Below the pieces are notes generated by a model, which worked only from the letters and a program-made list of their open reading frames with translations, was not told where the DNA came from and did no database searches. From a virus, in the IMG/VR virus record IMGVR_UViG_3300030090_002199, positions 1 to 39,424 of that record: a DNA stretch of 39,424 nucleotides; one strand, 5' to 3'. The translations under genes and the position numbers were made by a program. Of the stretch, positions 21,434-39,080 are shown piece after piece (within the stretch, counting starts at the first letter, position 1; each line of letters starts with the position of its first letter).

Positions 21434-21823
21434 ATGGCATGGGGGTTTTTAGTTAAGCCGTTATTAGGCGTTGTAGGAGATGTAGTTAAAGGTGTTGTAG
21501 ATACACGCAAAGCTAAGTCACAACAAAAAATTGTTGCTATACAAGCTGAAACATCTTTAATGGAAAAGAAGATACGTGGTGAACTAGATTGGGATATACA
21601 AGCTCAAAAAAATTCTAGCTCCAGTTGGAAGGATGAGTATTTAACAATAGTTTTTAGTATCCCCTTGATTTTATGTTTTTATCCGCCTACAGTAGAGTAT
21701 GTTATTATGGGGTTTGAAGCTCTGTCAAAATGTCCTGAATGGTATTTTTATACCCTTGGGATTATTGTTAGTGCTTCATTTGGTATTAAAGGTGCAACAA
21801 AAATATTTAACAAAAGAAAATAG
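21434..21823 (+). CDS. Holin (3TM GTA-type holin family)
   Basis: 129 residues. Starts MAWGFLVKPLLGVVGDVVKG, has a charged central helix (KKIRGELDWDIQAQKN) and then hydrophobic segments (LTIVFSIPLILCFYPPTVEYVI and YFYTLGIIVSASFGI), ending with a basic tail. This is the layout of the 3TM-superfamily holins widespread in marine phages. It would permeabilise the inner membrane at lysis. GGGAG lies seven bases upstream of the ATG. Confidence 0.8.
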   Translation: MAWGFLVKPLLGVVGDVVKGVVDTRKAKSQQKIVAIQAETSLMEKKIRGELDWDIQAQKNSSSSWKDEYLTIVFSIPLILCFYPPTVEYVIMGFEALSKCPEWYFYTLGIIVSASFGIKGATKIFNKRK

Positions 21824-21832
21824 GAGAATATT

Positions 21833-21904
21833 ATGTGGACTAAACCAACTTATGAAGACATACGTTTTGGATTTGAAGTAACAATGTATATTGCTAACAG
21901 ATGA
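21833..21904 (+). CDS. pqqA: PqqA, PQQ precursor peptide (23 aa)
   Basis: A 23-codon ORF. The peptide starts MWTKPTYEDIRFGF and continues EVTMYIANR. This is the layout of the PqqA family: MWxKP start, (D/E)-L/I-R-x-G core, and Glu15 and Tyr19 in ExxxY, the two residues that PqqE and its partners cross-link and that become the pyrroloquinoline quinone skeleton. I recall Klebsiella PqqA (23 residues, MWKKPAF...LEVTLYISNR) as same length and colinear. AGGAG precedes the ATG by seven bases. It lies nine bases after the holin stop and seven before the next gene. No pqqB-E is present, so maturation would depend on host enzymes. PQQ is the cofactor of methanol and glucose dehydrogenases. Confidence 0.85.
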   Translation: MWTKPTYEDIRFGFEVTMYIANR

Positions 21905-21911
21905 GGTAACT

Positions 21912-22052
21912 ATGGCTAAACGTGGATTATACGCCAATATCAATGCTCGAAAGCGTAAAGGAATTAGTCGTCCTAAATCAAAATCGACTATAACTAAAAA
22001 GGCTTATGCTAATATGAAAGCTGGCTTTCCTAAGAAAAAGAAGAGGACATAA
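21912..22052 (+). CDS. Small highly basic protein (46 aa)
   Basis: 46 residues, beginning MAKRGLYANINARKRKGISR, then an SKSTIT segment and a Lys-rich tail (KAGFPKKKKRT). This resembles a frequent short family in marine phages between lysis and packaging genes; the charge suggests nucleic acid binding. Function unknown. GAGGTAAC precedes the ATG. It is seven bases after pqqA. Confidence 0.75.
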   Translation: MAKRGLYANINARKRKGISRPKSKSTITKKAYANMKAGFPKKKKRT

Positions 22053-22053
22053 C

Positions 22054-22170
22054 ATGCCAAAAGGTACTGGTACATATGGGTCAAAAGTAGGTCGCCCACC
22101 TAAAACTAAGAAACCTATGCAAAAATCAAAGAAAAAGAAAACTAGACCAGTGTTGTATAGGGCAATGTAA
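22054..22170 (+). CDS. Small basic protein (38 aa)
   Basis: 38 residues, MPKGTGTYGSKVGRPPKT followed by a Lys-rich stretch and RPVLYRAM. The GRPP sequence resembles an AT-hook core (RGRP-like), so DNA minor-groove binding in this AT-rich genome is conceivable. Starts one base after the preceding stop (TAA-C-ATG). No family recognised. Confidence 0.65.
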   Translation: MPKGTGTYGSKVGRPPKTKKPMQKSKKKKTRPVLYRAM

Positions 22171-22173
22171 GAT

Positions 22174-22443
22174 ATGGTAGCTAAAAAATATCAGAATCCT
22201 AAAGGCGGTTTAAACCAAGCTGGTAGGGATTTTTATAATAGGAAGGGGGCTAAGTTAAAACCCCCTCTAAATAAAGGAACAAATCCTAGAAGAATAGCTT
22301 TTGCTGCTCGATTTGGTGGTATGAAAGGAGCAATGAAAGACGCTAAAGGCAACCCTACACGTAAAGCGTTAGCTTTAAGAAGATGGGGATTTAGAAGCGA
22401 ACAATCAGCTAGGAATTTTGCAGCGAGACATAGAAAATCATGA
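22174..22443 (+). CDS. DUF6321-like basic phage protein
   Basis: 89 residues, with the pattern KGGLNQAGRDFYNRKGAKLKPP then RRIAFAARFGGMKGAMKDAKG and RKALALRRWGF. The GGL-x-x-x-GR-x-x-YN start is typical of a conserved phage protein family (DUF6321-like) of unknown function found near terminase genes. Its stop overlaps the terminase small-subunit start (ATGA), indicating coupling. A nucleic acid role is likely from charge only. Confidence 0.75.
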   Translation: MVAKKYQNPKGGLNQAGRDFYNRKGAKLKPPLNKGTNPRRIAFAARFGGMKGAMKDAKGNPTRKALALRRWGFRSEQSARNFAARHRKS

Positions 22444-22676
22444 GCGAAATAATAGACTTTCCAACTTCAAAAATTGATAACGATACTTTTGAAGATAAGA
22501 TAGATGCTTTACCCAAGCTCATGGTAGACCAAGCATACAGCATGTTAAAAAGTGGGGAGACTTTAAGTGCAAGCGATTTAAAAGTCTGCCTAGAGATTAC
22601 AAAGCAATACGGTGTAGAGATTAAAAAAGAACCTGAAAATATTTTAACAGATAATCTCCCGTTTGATGAAGAATGA
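22440..22676 (+). CDS. Terminase small subunit, T7 gp18-like
   Basis: 78 residues, mostly helical: LPKLMVDQAYSMLKSGETLSASDLKVCLEITKQYGVEIK. Small size, acidic ends and place immediately before the large subunit match T7 gp18 (89 residues), which recognises phage DNA for packaging. The sequence is too divergent for motif proof. ATGA overlap with the upstream gene; overlaps terL by 11 bases. Confidence 0.8.
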   Translation: MSEIIDFPTSKIDNDTFEDKIDALPKLMVDQAYSMLKSGETLSASDLKVCLEITKQYGVEIKKEPENILTDNLPFDEE

Positions 22677-24333
22677 ACAATTAGCTAAAGTAAAAAATTT
22701 TAAGAACTTTTTATATTTAGCTTGGCAACATTTGAATTTGCCAGAACCAACACCTGTGCAATACGATATTGCAGATTACTTACAGACTGAAGAAAGAAGA
22801 TTAGTAATACAAGCATTTAGAGGTGTAGGTAAGTCGTGGATTACTTCTGCGTATGTTTGTCATCAACTATTGCTTAACCCACAACGTAATATACTTGTGG
22901 TATCAGCATCTAAAAGTCGTTCTGACGATTTCAGCACTTTCACTCAAAGACTAATAGCTGAAATGCCTTTGTTGGCTCATTTGAAGCCCACACCTGAACA
23001 AAGACACTCAAAAGTATCCTTTGATGTAGCCCCGGCAAGGGCATCACACGCACCTTCAGTTAAGTCGTTAGGTATAACCTCACAGCTTACTGGTAGTCGT
23101 GCAGACTTAATTATTGCCGATGACGTTGAATCAGCTAATAACTCACAGACACAACTGATGAGAGACAGGCTAAGTGAGACAGTCAAAGAATTTGACGCTA
23201 TTATAAAGCCTGATGTTGGACGTATCGTATTTCTAGGCACTCCTCAAACCGAAATGTCACTGTATAATGACCTTGAAGAACGTGGATTTAAGACTAGAAT
23301 ATGGACAGCGTTGTACCCAAGCAAGACACAAGAGATAGGCTATGGACAGAAACTAGCCCCAATACTTGTTGAGAAGCTCTCTAACGACACAGAAAAGCGA
23401 GGTAAGCCCACTGACCCTAAAAGGTTCGATGAGCTTGACCTGATGGAGCGTGAGGCTTCCTACGGGCGTTCTGGATTCAACCTACAGTTCATGCTGGATA
23501 CAACCCTATCGGATGCCAATAGATACCCATTGAAACTAAATGACCTTATCTTGGTATCCGGTAGCTCTACATGGGAGAAAGCCCCAGATAAAATACAGTG
23601 GGCTTCAGGCATTGACCAGATAAAAGATGTAGATTCTGAGTTGCCTAATGTGGGACTTAAAGGAGATTTTTGGGTAGCTCCTTTATATATGACAGATACC
23701 TTTACAGATTTTGAAGGGTCTGTTATGGCTATTGACCCTGCTGGCAGGGGTAACGACAAGACATCCTACGCTGTAGTTAAGATGTTGCATGGGATATTAT
23801 ATTTAACTAAAATAGAAGGATTAGATGGTGGATACTCTGAAAAGACTCTGGAATACATTAGTAACGTGGCTAAAGAGCAAGCCGTTAACCAGATTATCAT
23901 TGAAAGTAACTTTGGCGATGGAATGGCTACGCAATTACTTAAACCAGTTATGGCAAACATTTACCCGTGTAGTATTGAGGAAGTAAGGCATAGCAAACAA
24001 AAAGAACTTAGGATTATTGATACTCTTGAACCTGTAATGAACCAGCATAAACTTGTGGTTAATAAGGAGACAGTAGAAGCTGATTTCAAATTAGACCCTG
24101 ACCATCAACTGTTTAAGCAAATGACTCGCATTACAAGGGACAGAGGCTCACTAAGGCATGATGACCAGTTAGACGCACTGGCTATTGCTATCAACTATTG
24201 GGTTGAAGTCATGGATAGAGACATGGTTCTATCTGCACAAGAAGCACGTAACGATAGGTTAGACGTAGAACTAGAGCGTTTTATGGAAACAGCTATCGGA
24301 AAAACACCAAGGAGTGACTCATGGATAATGTAA
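22666..24333 (+). CDS. Terminase large subunit, T7 gp19-like
   Basis: 555 residues (T7 gp19 is 586). ATPase: Walker A FRGVGKS (about residue 53) and Walker B LIIADD (about 150), with a coupling motif FLGTPQTE. Nuclease: AIDPAGRGNDKTSYAVV (about 355), then IIIESNFGDGM and HDDQLDALAIA supply acidic residues for the RNase H-like domain. It powers DNA packaging and cuts concatemers. ATG 22666 is used; TTG 22663 is also possible. Confidence 0.96.
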   Translation: MKNEQLAKVKNFKNFLYLAWQHLNLPEPTPVQYDIADYLQTEERRLVIQAFRGVGKSWITSAYVCHQLLLNPQRNILVVSASKSRSDDFSTFTQRLIAEMPLLAHLKPTPEQRHSKVSFDVAPARASHAPSVKSLGITSQLTGSRADLIIADDVESANNSQTQLMRDRLSETVKEFDAIIKPDVGRIVFLGTPQTEMSLYNDLEERGFKTRIWTALYPSKTQEIGYGQKLAPILVEKLSNDTEKRGKPTDPKRFDELDLMEREASYGRSGFNLQFMLDTTLSDANRYPLKLNDLILVSGSSTWEKAPDKIQWASGIDQIKDVDSELPNVGLKGDFWVAPLYMTDTFTDFEGSVMAIDPAGRGNDKTSYAVVKMLHGILYLTKIEGLDGGYSEKTLEYISNVAKEQAVNQIIIESNFGDGMATQLLKPVMANIYPCSIEEVRHSKQKELRIIDTLEPVMNQHKLVVNKETVEADFKLDPDHQLFKQMTRITRDRGSLRHDDQLDALAIAINYWVEVMDRDMVLSAQEARNDRLDVELERFMETAIGKTPRSDSWIM

Positions 24334-27071: not shown

Positions 27072-27194
27072 ATGATTAATTATTTAAAATACCTATTAGC
27101 TATGGTGATAACTTTTGTTATTACTGTCTATGTAGGTTTATATATAGTAGTCCCTTATATCCTATTTAATGGGACATGGGGGTTCGGCATATGA
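27072..27194 (+). CDS. Small membrane protein (40 aa)
   Basis: 40 residues: MINYLKYLLAMVITFVITVY then VGLYIVVPYILF and a polar end. One or two hydrophobic spans. GGGAG lies eight bases before ATG. Its TGA overlaps the methyltransferase ATG (ATGA), so both are translated together. First rightward early gene; possible membrane or host-takeover role unknown. Confidence 0.7.
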   Translation: MINYLKYLLAMVITFVITVYVGLYIVVPYILFNGTWGFGI

Positions 27195-28138
27195 AAGTTA
27201 TATCACTATTCGATGGTATGTCGGGAGGTCAATTAGCTTTGAAAAAAGCCAATATTGACGTTAGCGAATACCATGCTTGTGAAATTGACCGATATGCTAT
27301 CAAAGTAACACAAGCTAATTTTCCTAAAACTTGGCAACATGGTGATGTTATTAACTTTAAGCCTACCCCTTATTATTATCTCAATGTATTTAACGCACTA
27401 AATGGGATAGACTTGTTAATTGCTGGTTCACCATGCCAAGATTTCAGCGTAGCAGGAAAACAATTAGGACACGCTGGAGACAGAGGTAAGTTATTTTATG
27501 AAGTCATAAGGATTATGCAGGAATGCAAGCCTAAATATTTCCTTGTTGAAAACGTAAAAATGCGGAAAGAGTCGGAAAAGGTTTTTACTGATTTACTAGG
27601 AGTAGAACCGATTGAAATCAATTCTGCATTAGTTTCTGCCCAGAATCGCAAAAGGCTATACTGGACTAACATCCCAAATGTTACACAACCAACCGACCAA
27701 AATATATTATTGAAAGATATTTTAGAGGATGGGTTTGTCGATAGGAATAAAAGTCATTGTATAGATGCCAATTACTTTAAAGGCGGAAACTTGAAGTCTT
27801 ACTTTGAAAAGCATAGAAGACAACTCGTATTCTCTAATGATGGGCTATGCCATATTGGTAATGCTGATTTGAGTGGACACGATAGCCTAAAGCGTGTCTA
27901 TCACGCTCAAGGTAAAGCACCCACAGTAATGAGTATGAATGGAGGGAATCAGGAACCTAAAGTATTCATAGAGCCAATGCACTATCGCAAATTAACACCA
28001 TTGGAATGTGAACGCTTGCAAGGCGTACCAGACAACTACACCAATCATGTGTCGAATACCCAAAGATATAAAATGCTAGGGAATGGCTTTCAAGTTGATA
28101 CCGTAGCTCACATATTGGAGGGATTGAAAAATGGATAA
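27191..28138 (+). CDS. DNA (cytosine-5) methyltransferase
   Basis: 315 residues with ordered C5-methyltransferase motifs: I (ISLFDGMSGGQLAL), IV (GSPCQDFS; catalytic Cys82), VI (LVENV), VIII (QNRKRLYW), IX (RKLTPLECERLQGVP) and X (GNGFQVDTVAHIL). The target-recognition region is short, like single-specificity enzymes. ATG 27191 is used, eight bases after GGGGG; the longer start at 27176 has no ribosome site. With no partner endonuclease, it is probably an orphan enzyme protecting phage DNA from host restriction or tuning expression. Overlaps the next gene by eight bases. Confidence 0.95.
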   Translation: MKVISLFDGMSGGQLALKKANIDVSEYHACEIDRYAIKVTQANFPKTWQHGDVINFKPTPYYYLNVFNALNGIDLLIAGSPCQDFSVAGKQLGHAGDRGKLFYEVIRIMQECKPKYFLVENVKMRKESEKVFTDLLGVEPIEINSALVSAQNRKRLYWTNIPNVTQPTDQNILLKDILEDGFVDRNKSHCIDANYFKGGNLKSYFEKHRRQLVFSNDGLCHIGNADLSGHDSLKRVYHAQGKAPTVMSMNGGNQEPKVFIEPMHYRKLTPLECERLQGVPDNYTNHVSNTQRYKMLGNGFQVDTVAHILEGLKNG

Positions 28139-28748
28139 GATACATTTAAGCACTATGACTGGAAAATTGGAGGGACTACGGGCTATCAGCACGAACACAG
28201 TTAGCAATAGTTTCTGTCAAAAGATGTTTAATTCTGGAAAAGAGGATAATATCTGCACAAAATGCTACTCTAATAAAATGTTGAGGACATACCGAAAAAA
28301 TATGGAACCAGCATTACAGAGAAATTCTGATTTATTGAGTAAACATGTATCTGATTCCATCCTAAAAGCTACACGCATTATGGAAGCGTTTATTCGCATT
28401 AACGCTCATGGTGAGCTAATCAATGAGCAACATCTAGCTAACATTGTGCGACTAGCAGAGCTAAAACCACACTGTAACATCACTCTATGGACTAAAAGAG
28501 CCGATATAGTGCGTAAGTTTTTTAATGTACATGATAAGCCTAGTAATCTGATTCTAATCTTTAGCAATAGTCTGATAGGCAATATCATGAAAAAACCGCC
28601 TAGGCATTTCGATAAGACGTTCAACAACGTGCCGGAAAGTATGCACAAGGAAAAACAAAACTGTACGGGTCAAAAATGTGCAGACTGTCTTTTATGCTAT
28701 CAACATAATGGGATAGATACTATCGTAGAAAAAGTTAAGAAATATTAA
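28131..28748 (+). CDS. GP88-like Cys-rich phage protein
   Basis: 205 residues. Ordered features: N-terminal ICTKCYS (CxxCY), central AFIRINAHGELINEQHLANI and CNITLWTKRADIV, then C-terminal NCTGQKCADCLLCYQHNG with four cysteines. This order (CxxCY, R-I-x-x-x-G-(D/E), T-x-W/Y-T-K, C-x-x-C-x-x-C) is that of the phage GP88 family, function unknown. The cysteines could bind a metal or Fe-S cluster. Overlap with the methyltransferase suggests joint expression. Family assignment is from pattern memory, not a search. Confidence 0.6.
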   Translation: MDKIHLSTMTGKLEGLRAISTNTVSNSFCQKMFNSGKEDNICTKCYSNKMLRTYRKNMEPALQRNSDLLSKHVSDSILKATRIMEAFIRINAHGELINEQHLANIVRLAELKPHCNITLWTKRADIVRKFFNVHDKPSNLILIFSNSLIGNIMKKPPRHFDKTFNNVPESMHKEKQNCTGQKCADCLLCYQHNGIDTIVEKVKKY

Positions 28749-28827: not shown

Positions 28828-29283
28828 GGGTCGTGGGTCGAGTCCGAGGGTCGGTATCGGGGGTCGCTGCCTGTCCGGGGGTCGCCCGGTACCGGGGGTC
28901 GTGTTGTGCATGTCGTTGATTATAAAGGAGAAACACATGGGAATCTTGCAGAGGGTCGTGGGTCGTTTGCATCATTACGCTTTTTGGTTGTGGGTCGGAA
29001 TCGTATGCTTTATAATGTCTGCTCCACTAATTGCTTGGGGGATTTATGAATATATTTATGCTTGATAGTGCTGTTACATCATGTGCTGAGTATCACTGTG
29101 ATAAACATGTGGTTAAGATGATGGTCGAGTACGCTCAATTGTTATCGACAGCACATAGGGTCGTTGATGATTTACCGGATGACAATGCAGATTTTTATAA
29201 GGTTGCACATAAGAATCATCCGAGTGCTGTTTGGGTACGTGAAAGTCTATACAACTACACATGGTTACATTTTCTGTGGGTCG
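28828..29283 (+). repeat. GGGTCG hexamer cluster (11 copies in 456 bp)
   Basis: GGGTCG starts at 28828, 28835, 28848, 28861, 28879, 28896, 28953, 28960, 28992, 29158 and 29278. Only a handful of other + strand copies were noticed in the rest of the genome (e.g. 364, 5744, 30238, 34445, 34931). The first six lie in a GC-rich, noncoding 80-base stretch, unusual in this AT-rich genome, and include a perfect palindrome CCCGGTACCGGG (28885-28896). Later copies run through two coding genes in different frames, so coding does not explain them. Confidence 0.8.
28937..29065 (+). CDS. Small membrane protein (42 aa)
   Basis: 42 residues: MGILQRVVGRLHHYAFWLWV then GIVCFIMSAPLIAWGIYEYIYA, one long hydrophobic span after a basic N-terminus. 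AAAGGAG is seven bases before this ATG, which selects it from a longer open frame. Overlaps the next gene by 20 bases. Contains three GGGTCG copies. Function unknown. Confidence 0.7.
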   Translation: MGILQRVVGRLHHYAFWLWVGIVCFIMSAPLIAWGIYEYIYA

Positions 29284-29579
29284 AGCTATCTAAGGAATAC
29301 ACTAAAAGATATGCCAAGGAACATACGTCTTACACTAAACTTAAAGACGTACTTTCTACACCACCCAAAAATATTCCAGTGGTTGCCATGACTCCACTAC
29401 CACAGTGTATGCCGGATGAATACAAAAACGAATCACCAGTAGTAGCATACAGAGATTATTATTATGGTGAGAAAAAAGATTTTGCTACGTGGAAAACACG
29501 TATGCCAGAGTGGTTTAACCAGCGTAGAAACAAGGAGATAGATAGGGGTATCGTTAAAACTATTAGACATGGGGAATAA
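29046..29579 (+). CDS. Conserved phage protein with DKHVVKM motif (177 aa)
   Basis: 177 residues from MNIFMLDS. Conserved-looking segments: CDKHVVKMMVEYAQLLSTAH, then HPSAVWVRESLYNYTWL, MPDEYKNESPVVAYRDYY and DFATWKTRMPEWF. I recognise this as a widespread family in marine T7- and T4-like phages usually annotated hypothetical; the His/Lys/Asp-rich N-terminus and Trp-rich end hint at a nucleic acid enzyme but no fold is assigned. ATG 29046 is chosen since GGGGG precedes it; the ORF could extend to 29031. Confidence 0.75.
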   Translation: MNIFMLDSAVTSCAEYHCDKHVVKMMVEYAQLLSTAHRVVDDLPDDNADFYKVAHKNHPSAVWVRESLYNYTWLHFLWVELSKEYTKRYAKEHTSYTKLKDVLSTPPKNIPVVAMTPLPQCMPDEYKNESPVVAYRDYYYGEKKDFATWKTRMPEWFNQRRNKEIDRGIVKTIRHGE

Positions 29580-38023: not shown

Positions 38024-38790
38024 AAACACAGTTACTTATAGACGGTGATATAGTAGCTTATCAATCGGCTATATCATCAGAGGTAGAAATAAAGTGGGAC
38101 GATGATTTGTGGACACTGCATTCACATGAAGATGAAGCTAAAGAAATGTTAGACAACACGATAGCAAAAATGAAAAAGAATTTAAAAGCTGATTCTATTG
38201 TTGTAGCTATAACAGACAAAGCTAATTTTAGAAAAGATGTATTGCCTACGTACAAAGATAACAGAAAACAAAGACGCAAACCTATTGTATTAGGAATCTT
38301 ACGTAGTTACCTTATCAAAAAATACAATGCCATTTTTTACACTGGTTTAGAAGCTGATGATGTATTAGGAATCCTAGCGACTAAACCTAGTAAGTATGAT
38401 AAAGTTATCGTGTCTATTGATAAAGACTTTAATCAAATACCTACTAAGATAAGTAGAGATGGTGAGACTGTTACGAGTGAAGTAACTACACAAGAAGCTG
38501 ACTTGTTTCATATGATGCAGACACTAGCTGGCGATTCATCCGATGGTTATTCTGGATGTCCTAAGATTGGAATGGTAACTGCCAAACGATTATTAGGTAA
38601 GAAAAAAACTGTTGAAAGTATGTGGGAAACTGTAGTAGAAACATATAAGAAAGCAGGGTTAGAAGAAAGGGATGCCTTACAACAAGCTAGGGTTGCTAGA
38701 ATTTTAAGGCATGGTGAGTATGACACTAAAACGGGAGAAGTAAAACTATGGGAGACATCACAATACAACAAGAAGCAGCAGAACAAATAG
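38020..38790 (+). CDS. 5'-3' exonuclease, T7 gp6-like (FEN superfamily)
   Basis: 256 residues. FEN signature: LLIDGDIVAYQSA at the N-terminus, TYKDNRKQRRKP, LEADDVLGILA, VIVSIDKDFNQIP and LAGDSSDGYSGCPKIGMVTA. Removes RNA primers and degrades host DNA. ATGA overlap with the preceding gene; its 3' end overlaps the Fe-S carrier gene by 43 bases. Confidence 0.94.
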   Translation: MKTQLLIDGDIVAYQSAISSEVEIKWDDDLWTLHSHEDEAKEMLDNTIAKMKKNLKADSIVVAITDKANFRKDVLPTYKDNRKQRRKPIVLGILRSYLIKKYNAIFYTGLEADDVLGILATKPSKYDKVIVSIDKDFNQIPTKISRDGETVTSEVTTQEADLFHMMQTLAGDSSDGYSGCPKIGMVTAKRLLGKKKTVESMWETVVETYKKAGLEERDALQQARVARILRHGEYDTKTGEVKLWETSQYNKKQQNK

Positions 38791-39080
38791 ATAAAATATT
38801 ATCAGAAGAAGAACAACGACCCTATGCACTCAGAATATTTGTAGTGGGTGGTGGTTGTTCTGGATTTGAATATGGTTTTTCATTAGAGCTAAACGGCAAA
38901 CAAGATGATGACCTTGAATTTGAAACAAATGGCATAAAGATGGTTTGTGATTATATGTCAATGCAATATTTAAACGGAGCAATAATTGGATGGAGTTCAA
39001 CTATTGCTGGTTCTAATTTCTCAATTAAAAATCCAAATGCAACTGCAACCTGTGGGTGTGGTTCATCATTTGCCGCATAA
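38748..39080 (+). CDS. A-type iron-sulfur cluster carrier (IscA/HesB/ErpA family)
   Basis: 110 residues. The family core is present: LRIFVVGGGCSGFEYGF with Cys37, then NPNATATCGCGSSF with Cys102 and Cys104, the three ligand cysteines of A-type carriers. It hands Fe-S clusters to target enzymes. GGGAG lies about 14 bases before ATG, in the exonuclease coding region. In this genome it is next to the nrdAB cluster; it might supply clusters or iron for host or phage enzymes such as the diiron NrdB, but that is inference. Known in other marine phages as an auxiliary gene. Confidence 0.92.
   Translation: MGDITIQQEAAEQIDKILSEEEQRPYALRIFVVGGGCSGFEYGFSLELNGKQDDDLEFETNGIKMVCDYMSMQYLNGAIIGWSSTIAGSNFSIKNPNATATCGCGSSFAA

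Follow-up and report, generated by a model that had tools for sequence, protein, structure and literature searches.

The locus raises a simple question: is a 23-codon open reading frame in a phage genome a real gene for PqqA, the precursor peptide of PQQ, and, if so, what could a phage gain by encoding the precursor and none of the enzymes that mature it? The stretch of DNA analysed, referred to here as the window, is an IMG/VR virus record of 39,424 nucleotides (39.4 kb) in which genes for a phage RNA polymerase, a portal, a capsid and a terminase are recognised. Its ORF at 21833-21904 (+) translates as MWTKPTYEDIRFGFEVTMYIANR, 23 codons followed by a TGA stop, and a Shine-Dalgarno-like AGGAG (21821-21825, +), read from the sequence, lies about 7 nt 5' of the ATG. 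Glu15 and Tyr19, the residues of PqqA that become PQQ, stand in ExxxY spacing. The initial annotation had described this ORF, ribosome site and residue pair, and our translation agrees with it; its naming of the product as PqqA is borne out by both family models, Pfam PF08042 (45 bits, E=9.6e-12; cut-off 21.1) and NCBIfam TIGR02107 (49 bits, E=3.4e-13; cut-off 20), and no other family model matched the peptide. Since the PqqA models score far over their curated cut-offs without a rival family, a chance ORF is excluded, and identity as bona fide PqqA, judged from sequence, is near certain. Searches of PHROGs and of solved structures gave no match to the peptide. Length, MWTKP start, R-x-G-F-E-V-T-M-Y core, Glu15 and Tyr19 are all shared with bacterial PqqA; the differences are that the window gene, set in a phage late-gene region, has no pqqB-E beside it, and that its exact YEDIR...YIANR sequence is absent from the bacterial genomes searched.

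The genome around the gene is that of a phage. The large terminase subunit (22663-24333, +; phrog_38, 394 bits) is 72-77% identical to those of HTVC019P-type pelagiphages and the RNA polymerase belongs to phrog_414; a T7-like RNA polymerase and terminase fit the Pelagivirus/HTVC019P group, and by these sequence matches the phage is of that type. Four small ORFs, of which pqqA comes first, fill a slot between a gene for a small, holin-like membrane protein (phrog_2524; 21434-21823, +), kept upstream of TerS in relatives without pqqA, and the small and large terminase genes. The other three encode a 46-aa basic product beginning MAKRGLYANINARKRKG (21912-22052, +; read from the sequence, no Pfam match), a 38-aa basic product (22054-22170, +; likewise no Pfam match) and an 89-aa DUF6321 protein (22174-22443, +; PF19846, 71.6 bits; phrog_4689). 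A GAGG before the 21912 start overlaps the pqqA stop codon, making co-translation plausible, and the two ORFs may thus be translated in step. The right edge of the slot is a gene in the small-terminase position (22440-22676, +), which in relatives lies directly 3' of the holin-like gene: among the closest of them the junction is an empty 14 bp in L198 and L201 and is filled by other small genes in L197 and L273. Among 80 terminase relatives, some of whose loci stop short upstream, pqqA is present only in a near-identical contig; this second, independent IMG/VR contig (L195) has 100% identity to the window over 3,574 bp. The empty or variable junction, together with restriction of pqqA to the near-identical contig, therefore identifies it, on comparison of these sequences, as a cargo gene acquired by this lineage. 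Hallmark genes, neighbours and the empty site in relatives all show it to be set among phage genes in the genome of a true phage, and its lack in the terminase relatives indicates that it is not essential in this phage group.

Elsewhere in the window an ErpA-type iron-sulfur cluster insertion protein (38748-39080, +; NF010147, 126.6 bits, over cut-off) represents another host-metabolism gene; to link it to PqqE, an iron-sulfur enzyme, is speculation. Genes for a cytosine-5 DNA methyltransferase (27176-28138, +; TIGR00675), a GP88-family protein (28131-28748, +; PF17338) and a pyrimidine-dimer glycosylase-like protein (29031-29579, +; PF03013) are grouped in the interval that separates the RNA polymerase from the packaging genes.

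Searching 50,697 phage records by tblastn yielded 12 matches. Nine of them are records of Methylophilales/Methylophilaceae phages and represent six distinct phages of different types (Melnitz, in four records, Venkman, MEP301, MEP401, MEP402 and P19250A); the other three are a metagenomic podovirus and two records labelled Acinetobacter phage. Like the window, the six phages have a stand-alone pqqA with a ribosome site and no pqqB-E in the genomes or stretches examined; unlike it, they belong to other phage families, carry the gene at other genome positions, and encode peptides of the MRFGFEVTMY(V/I)(M/L) type, 61-68% identical to the window's. The suggestion that gene callers miss pqqA proved apt: the site carries no annotated gene in Venkman, MEP301, MEP402 and P19250A, and in Melnitz an opposite-strand ORF has been called. 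The latter, Melnitz-1 gene 151 (L295:14849-14944, -), is annotated as a hypothetical protein overlapping the plus-strand pqqA; it is probably spurious and masks the real gene.

One Acinetobacter record, CAKLQF020000010.1 (L007:4001-7255), we rejected as phage: although labelled Acinetobacter phage it carries a complete pqqABCDE operon and a polyphosphate kinase, and is probably bacterial DNA misfiled. Such misfiling evidently occurs, and this bacterial-looking record, one of two matches so labelled, is an argument for supposing that the window's pqqA too is host DNA, lies on a prophage or bacterial contig misfiled as virus, or is a chance ORF. We accord that supposition practically no probability. 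For the window it is refuted by the hallmark genes (terminase, portal, capsid and phage RNA polymerase) together with the independent identical contig; the isolate genomes of Venkman, MEP301 and P19250A carry pqqA besides.

The gene is also widespread in uncultured viruses. The pattern GFEVTMY was found in at least 120 IMG/VR contigs, each with a PqqA-like start upstream, and pqqA is present in more than 160 such contigs overall. Because this pattern fixes Glu15 and Tyr19 it cannot show their conservation, and a second scan fixed codons 1-13 only, leaving both residues free: all 119 of the readable matches listed were 23 aa long with E15 and Y19. These copies comprise 105 distinct DNA versions that differ mostly at synonymous positions (TAC/TAT are used 55/50 at Tyr19), a pattern by which phage pqqA is under strict purifying selection that retains Glu15, Tyr19 and the core. 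Conservation of the two residues in related phages had been put forward as a check on the original reading; it holds throughout the copies listed, but the gene itself is an insertion that is not kept among the closest phage relatives. A strict Shine-Dalgarno core precedes 170 of the 179 phage pqqA loci listed, as against about 32 in shuffled upstream sequence. Among the matches listed, the 179 loci fall into 117 neighbour contexts and about 36 unlinked groups, counts that fragment ends and ORF choice may both inflate; in a T4-like clade, for example, the major head protein gene and a tail-tube gene flank pqqA. A further phage PqqA type, MWTKPTYE(T/K)IRLGFEVTMYFKN(R/S) and MKWSKPTYQKLRLGFEVTMYFKQV, was seen in five loci (L011, L020, L025, L031 and L035), and a marine genome (L307) encodes a 23-aa peptide resembling it; from its sequence this type points to yet another host group.

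The variable slot, and the presence of pqqA in a single near-identical contig among 80 relatives, are what would be expected of a host pqqA that recombined into a cargo position and has no present function. This we think very unlikely: neutral 23-codon ORFs would decay, whereas the phage copies are intact, are preceded by a Shine-Dalgarno core far in excess of the number expected, and show purifying selection over some 36 neighbourhoods.

No similarity to pqqB, C, D or E, or to methanol dehydrogenase, was found within the window, in line with the earlier statement that maturation genes are not present here. Nor did tblastn turn up any of the four Pqq proteins at the 120 viral pqqA loci among the matches listed, whereas it placed them close to pqqA at 39 of the 66 bacterial loci; a single Acinetobacter set served as query, which distant homologues may escape, and many of the viral loci cover little sequence. 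In 50 whole contigs searched for radical-SAM family members there was one such protein, on the L071 contig; it sits among unrelated genes, distant from pqqA, and is probably not PqqE. Missing linkage to pqqB-E does not disqualify the gene as pqqA, stand-alone copies being normal in methylotrophs as well (PMC4109929).

A bare substrate without maturation genes could, on the other hand, compete: the peptide might act as a decoy that binds host PqqD/PqqE, titrates the pathway, lowers PQQ and redirects metabolism. We consider this improbable. A decoy would tolerate or even favour loss of the reactive residues, and purifying selection has kept the whole core, Glu15 and Tyr19 included; many phage peptides are letter-identical to those of small Burkholderiales-order genomes; and a PQQ dehydrogenase is encoded on one of the pqqA contigs. 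In this 72 kb contig, IMGVR_UViG_3300025120_009955 (L311), a PQQ-dependent dehydrogenase of the methanol/ethanol family (L311:5990-7864, +; TIGR03075, 608 bits) is followed directly 3' by a formate dehydrogenase alpha subunit (L311:7944-10784, +; TIGR01591, 885 bits), the pair lying at about 34.0-38.8 kb of the contig. Two steps of methanol oxidation are thus side by side, with a curli-repeat-like protein preceding them. The contig also encodes a phage-type GroEL, a DNA ligase and RNR. Of its proteins, 20 were tested and none was recognisable as capsid or terminase; IMG/VR and PHROG matches are what mark it as phage.

What hosts do these phages infect? In the annotated phage collection, all true phage matches with a stated host infect Methylophilales, which lends weight to the link to methylotrophs and methanol dehydrogenase drawn at the outset. 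The SAR11- or Vibrio-infecting phages listed as nearest to MEP301, Venkman and MEP402 gave no PqqA match, and neither did the HTVC019P-type isolates related to the window in that collection. Further Methylophilales phages in NCBI (MEP431-434, HIM624-A, phiMB624-A and EXVC038S) were unmatched, being either outside the collection or without pqqA. On the bacterial side, small genomes (1.28-1.35 Mb) of the order of TMED22, a Burkholderiales order, have two to three stand-alone pqqA copies each and encode MWTTPAATEMRFGFEVTMYVMNK and similar peptides, letter-identical to those of many phages; the phage gene is thus a homologue of a host gene, and these genomes, judged by size and peptide, are likely Ca. 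Methylopumilus/OM43. In the order of Methylophaga, pqqA was found in 44 of 59 genomes, nearly all multi-copy, and Methylophilaceae carry 3-12 pqqA copies and usually one pqqBCDE set (PMC4109929). The extra copies of both groups resemble the window's in being precursor-only and apart from pqqBCDE; they differ in being chromosomal and several per genome (PMC4109929).

The host of the window phage itself is probably a PQQ-making marine proteobacterium of methylotrophic habit. Its peptide is identical to none of those at the 66 bacterial loci, and the pattern YE(D/E)(I/M)RFGFEVTMY, which covers its YEDIR version, was not found in 369 class-level genomes. The closest bacterial peptide found, from a Methylophaga MAG, is identical at 20 of 23 positions, those of marine Burkholderiales such as TMED22 at 19, and OM43/LD28-type copies at only 14-15. 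Among the genomes compared, the closest cultured relatives of the window phage infect SAR11; NCBI taxonomy places Methylophilales phage MEP431 in the genus Pelagivirus, and phages of the window's type therefore do infect methylotrophs.

We hold it probable, then, that the window carries a functional phage-borne pqqA that supplies the substrate alone, which the host's PqqB-E turn into PQQ for methanol dehydrogenase. Expression of the gene, processing of its product by host enzymes, a gain through methanol oxidation and the type of host that this phage uses are all inferred. After infection the phage would make the PqqA peptide, probably late, to judge from the position of the gene by the holin-like and terminase genes and by analogy with T7-like phages. 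Glu15 would be cross-linked with Tyr19 by host PqqD/PqqE, and host PqqB, peptidases and PqqC would carry the product on to PQQ; PQQ, and hence the output of PQQ-dependent methanol/alcohol dehydrogenase, would be raised or maintained while host expression fails. Because one peptide is consumed per cofactor, the precursor gene alone would be the cheapest way to achieve this. Added PqqA is reported to be converted to PQQ at 70-80% in cell extract (PMC9851590), and xoxF is the top OM43 transcript (PMC5120137); with many pqqA copies per pqqBCDE set, such efficient conversion and xoxF dominance make a limit in PqqA supply plausible.

PQQ serves several dehydrogenases, and the window peptide was matched exactly by none of the bacterial copies searched; both points would suit PQQ made for a purpose other than methanol oxidation, such as another PQQ dehydrogenase or antioxidant protection in lysis. 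We regard this as unlikely, given that the host-stated phage matches are all to methylotroph phages and that xoxF dominates OM43 transcription (PMC5120137). Returning to supply for methanol dehydrogenase, and with slightly less assurance than for the window alone, we think it likely that stand-alone pqqA is convergent, host-tracking and usually overlooked in methylotroph phages generally: podo-, sipho- and T4-like phages, unrelated to one another, would each have acquired the same 23-codon gene, absent from their SAR11-infecting sisters, because the supply of PqqA is what limits PQQ once a methylotroph is infected.

The idea of phage pqqA is not new, having been published in 2020 for the Lake Baikal methylotroph phage VP_266, where the gene was proposed as an auxiliary metabolic gene for methanol oxidation (PMC7678222). 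VP_266 has in common with the window a phage-encoded pqqA, but it is T4-like and also encodes methanol dehydrogenase, whereas the window phage is T7-like, of Pelagivirus type, and has the precursor alone (PMC7678222). A study of reservoir sediment lists viral pqqA/D/E (PMC13188868). The publications describing Melnitz, MEP401/402, MEP301 and Venkman make no mention of phage pqqA; the breadth and host-tracking pattern of the gene across phages appear unreported in the open literature searched. The blindness of annotation to short ORFs conceals auxiliary genes, in published isolate genomes included, and pqqA offers a sequence marker by which methylotroph hosts of uncultured phages may be predicted. 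With phage pqqA one can also test directly whether PQQ in living methylotrophs is limited by the dosage of PqqA. If the proposal is true, it would be one of the smallest metabolic genes known, contributing just the substrate that a host RiPP pathway consumes, and viruses of abundant aquatic methanol oxidisers would commonly control cofactor supply.
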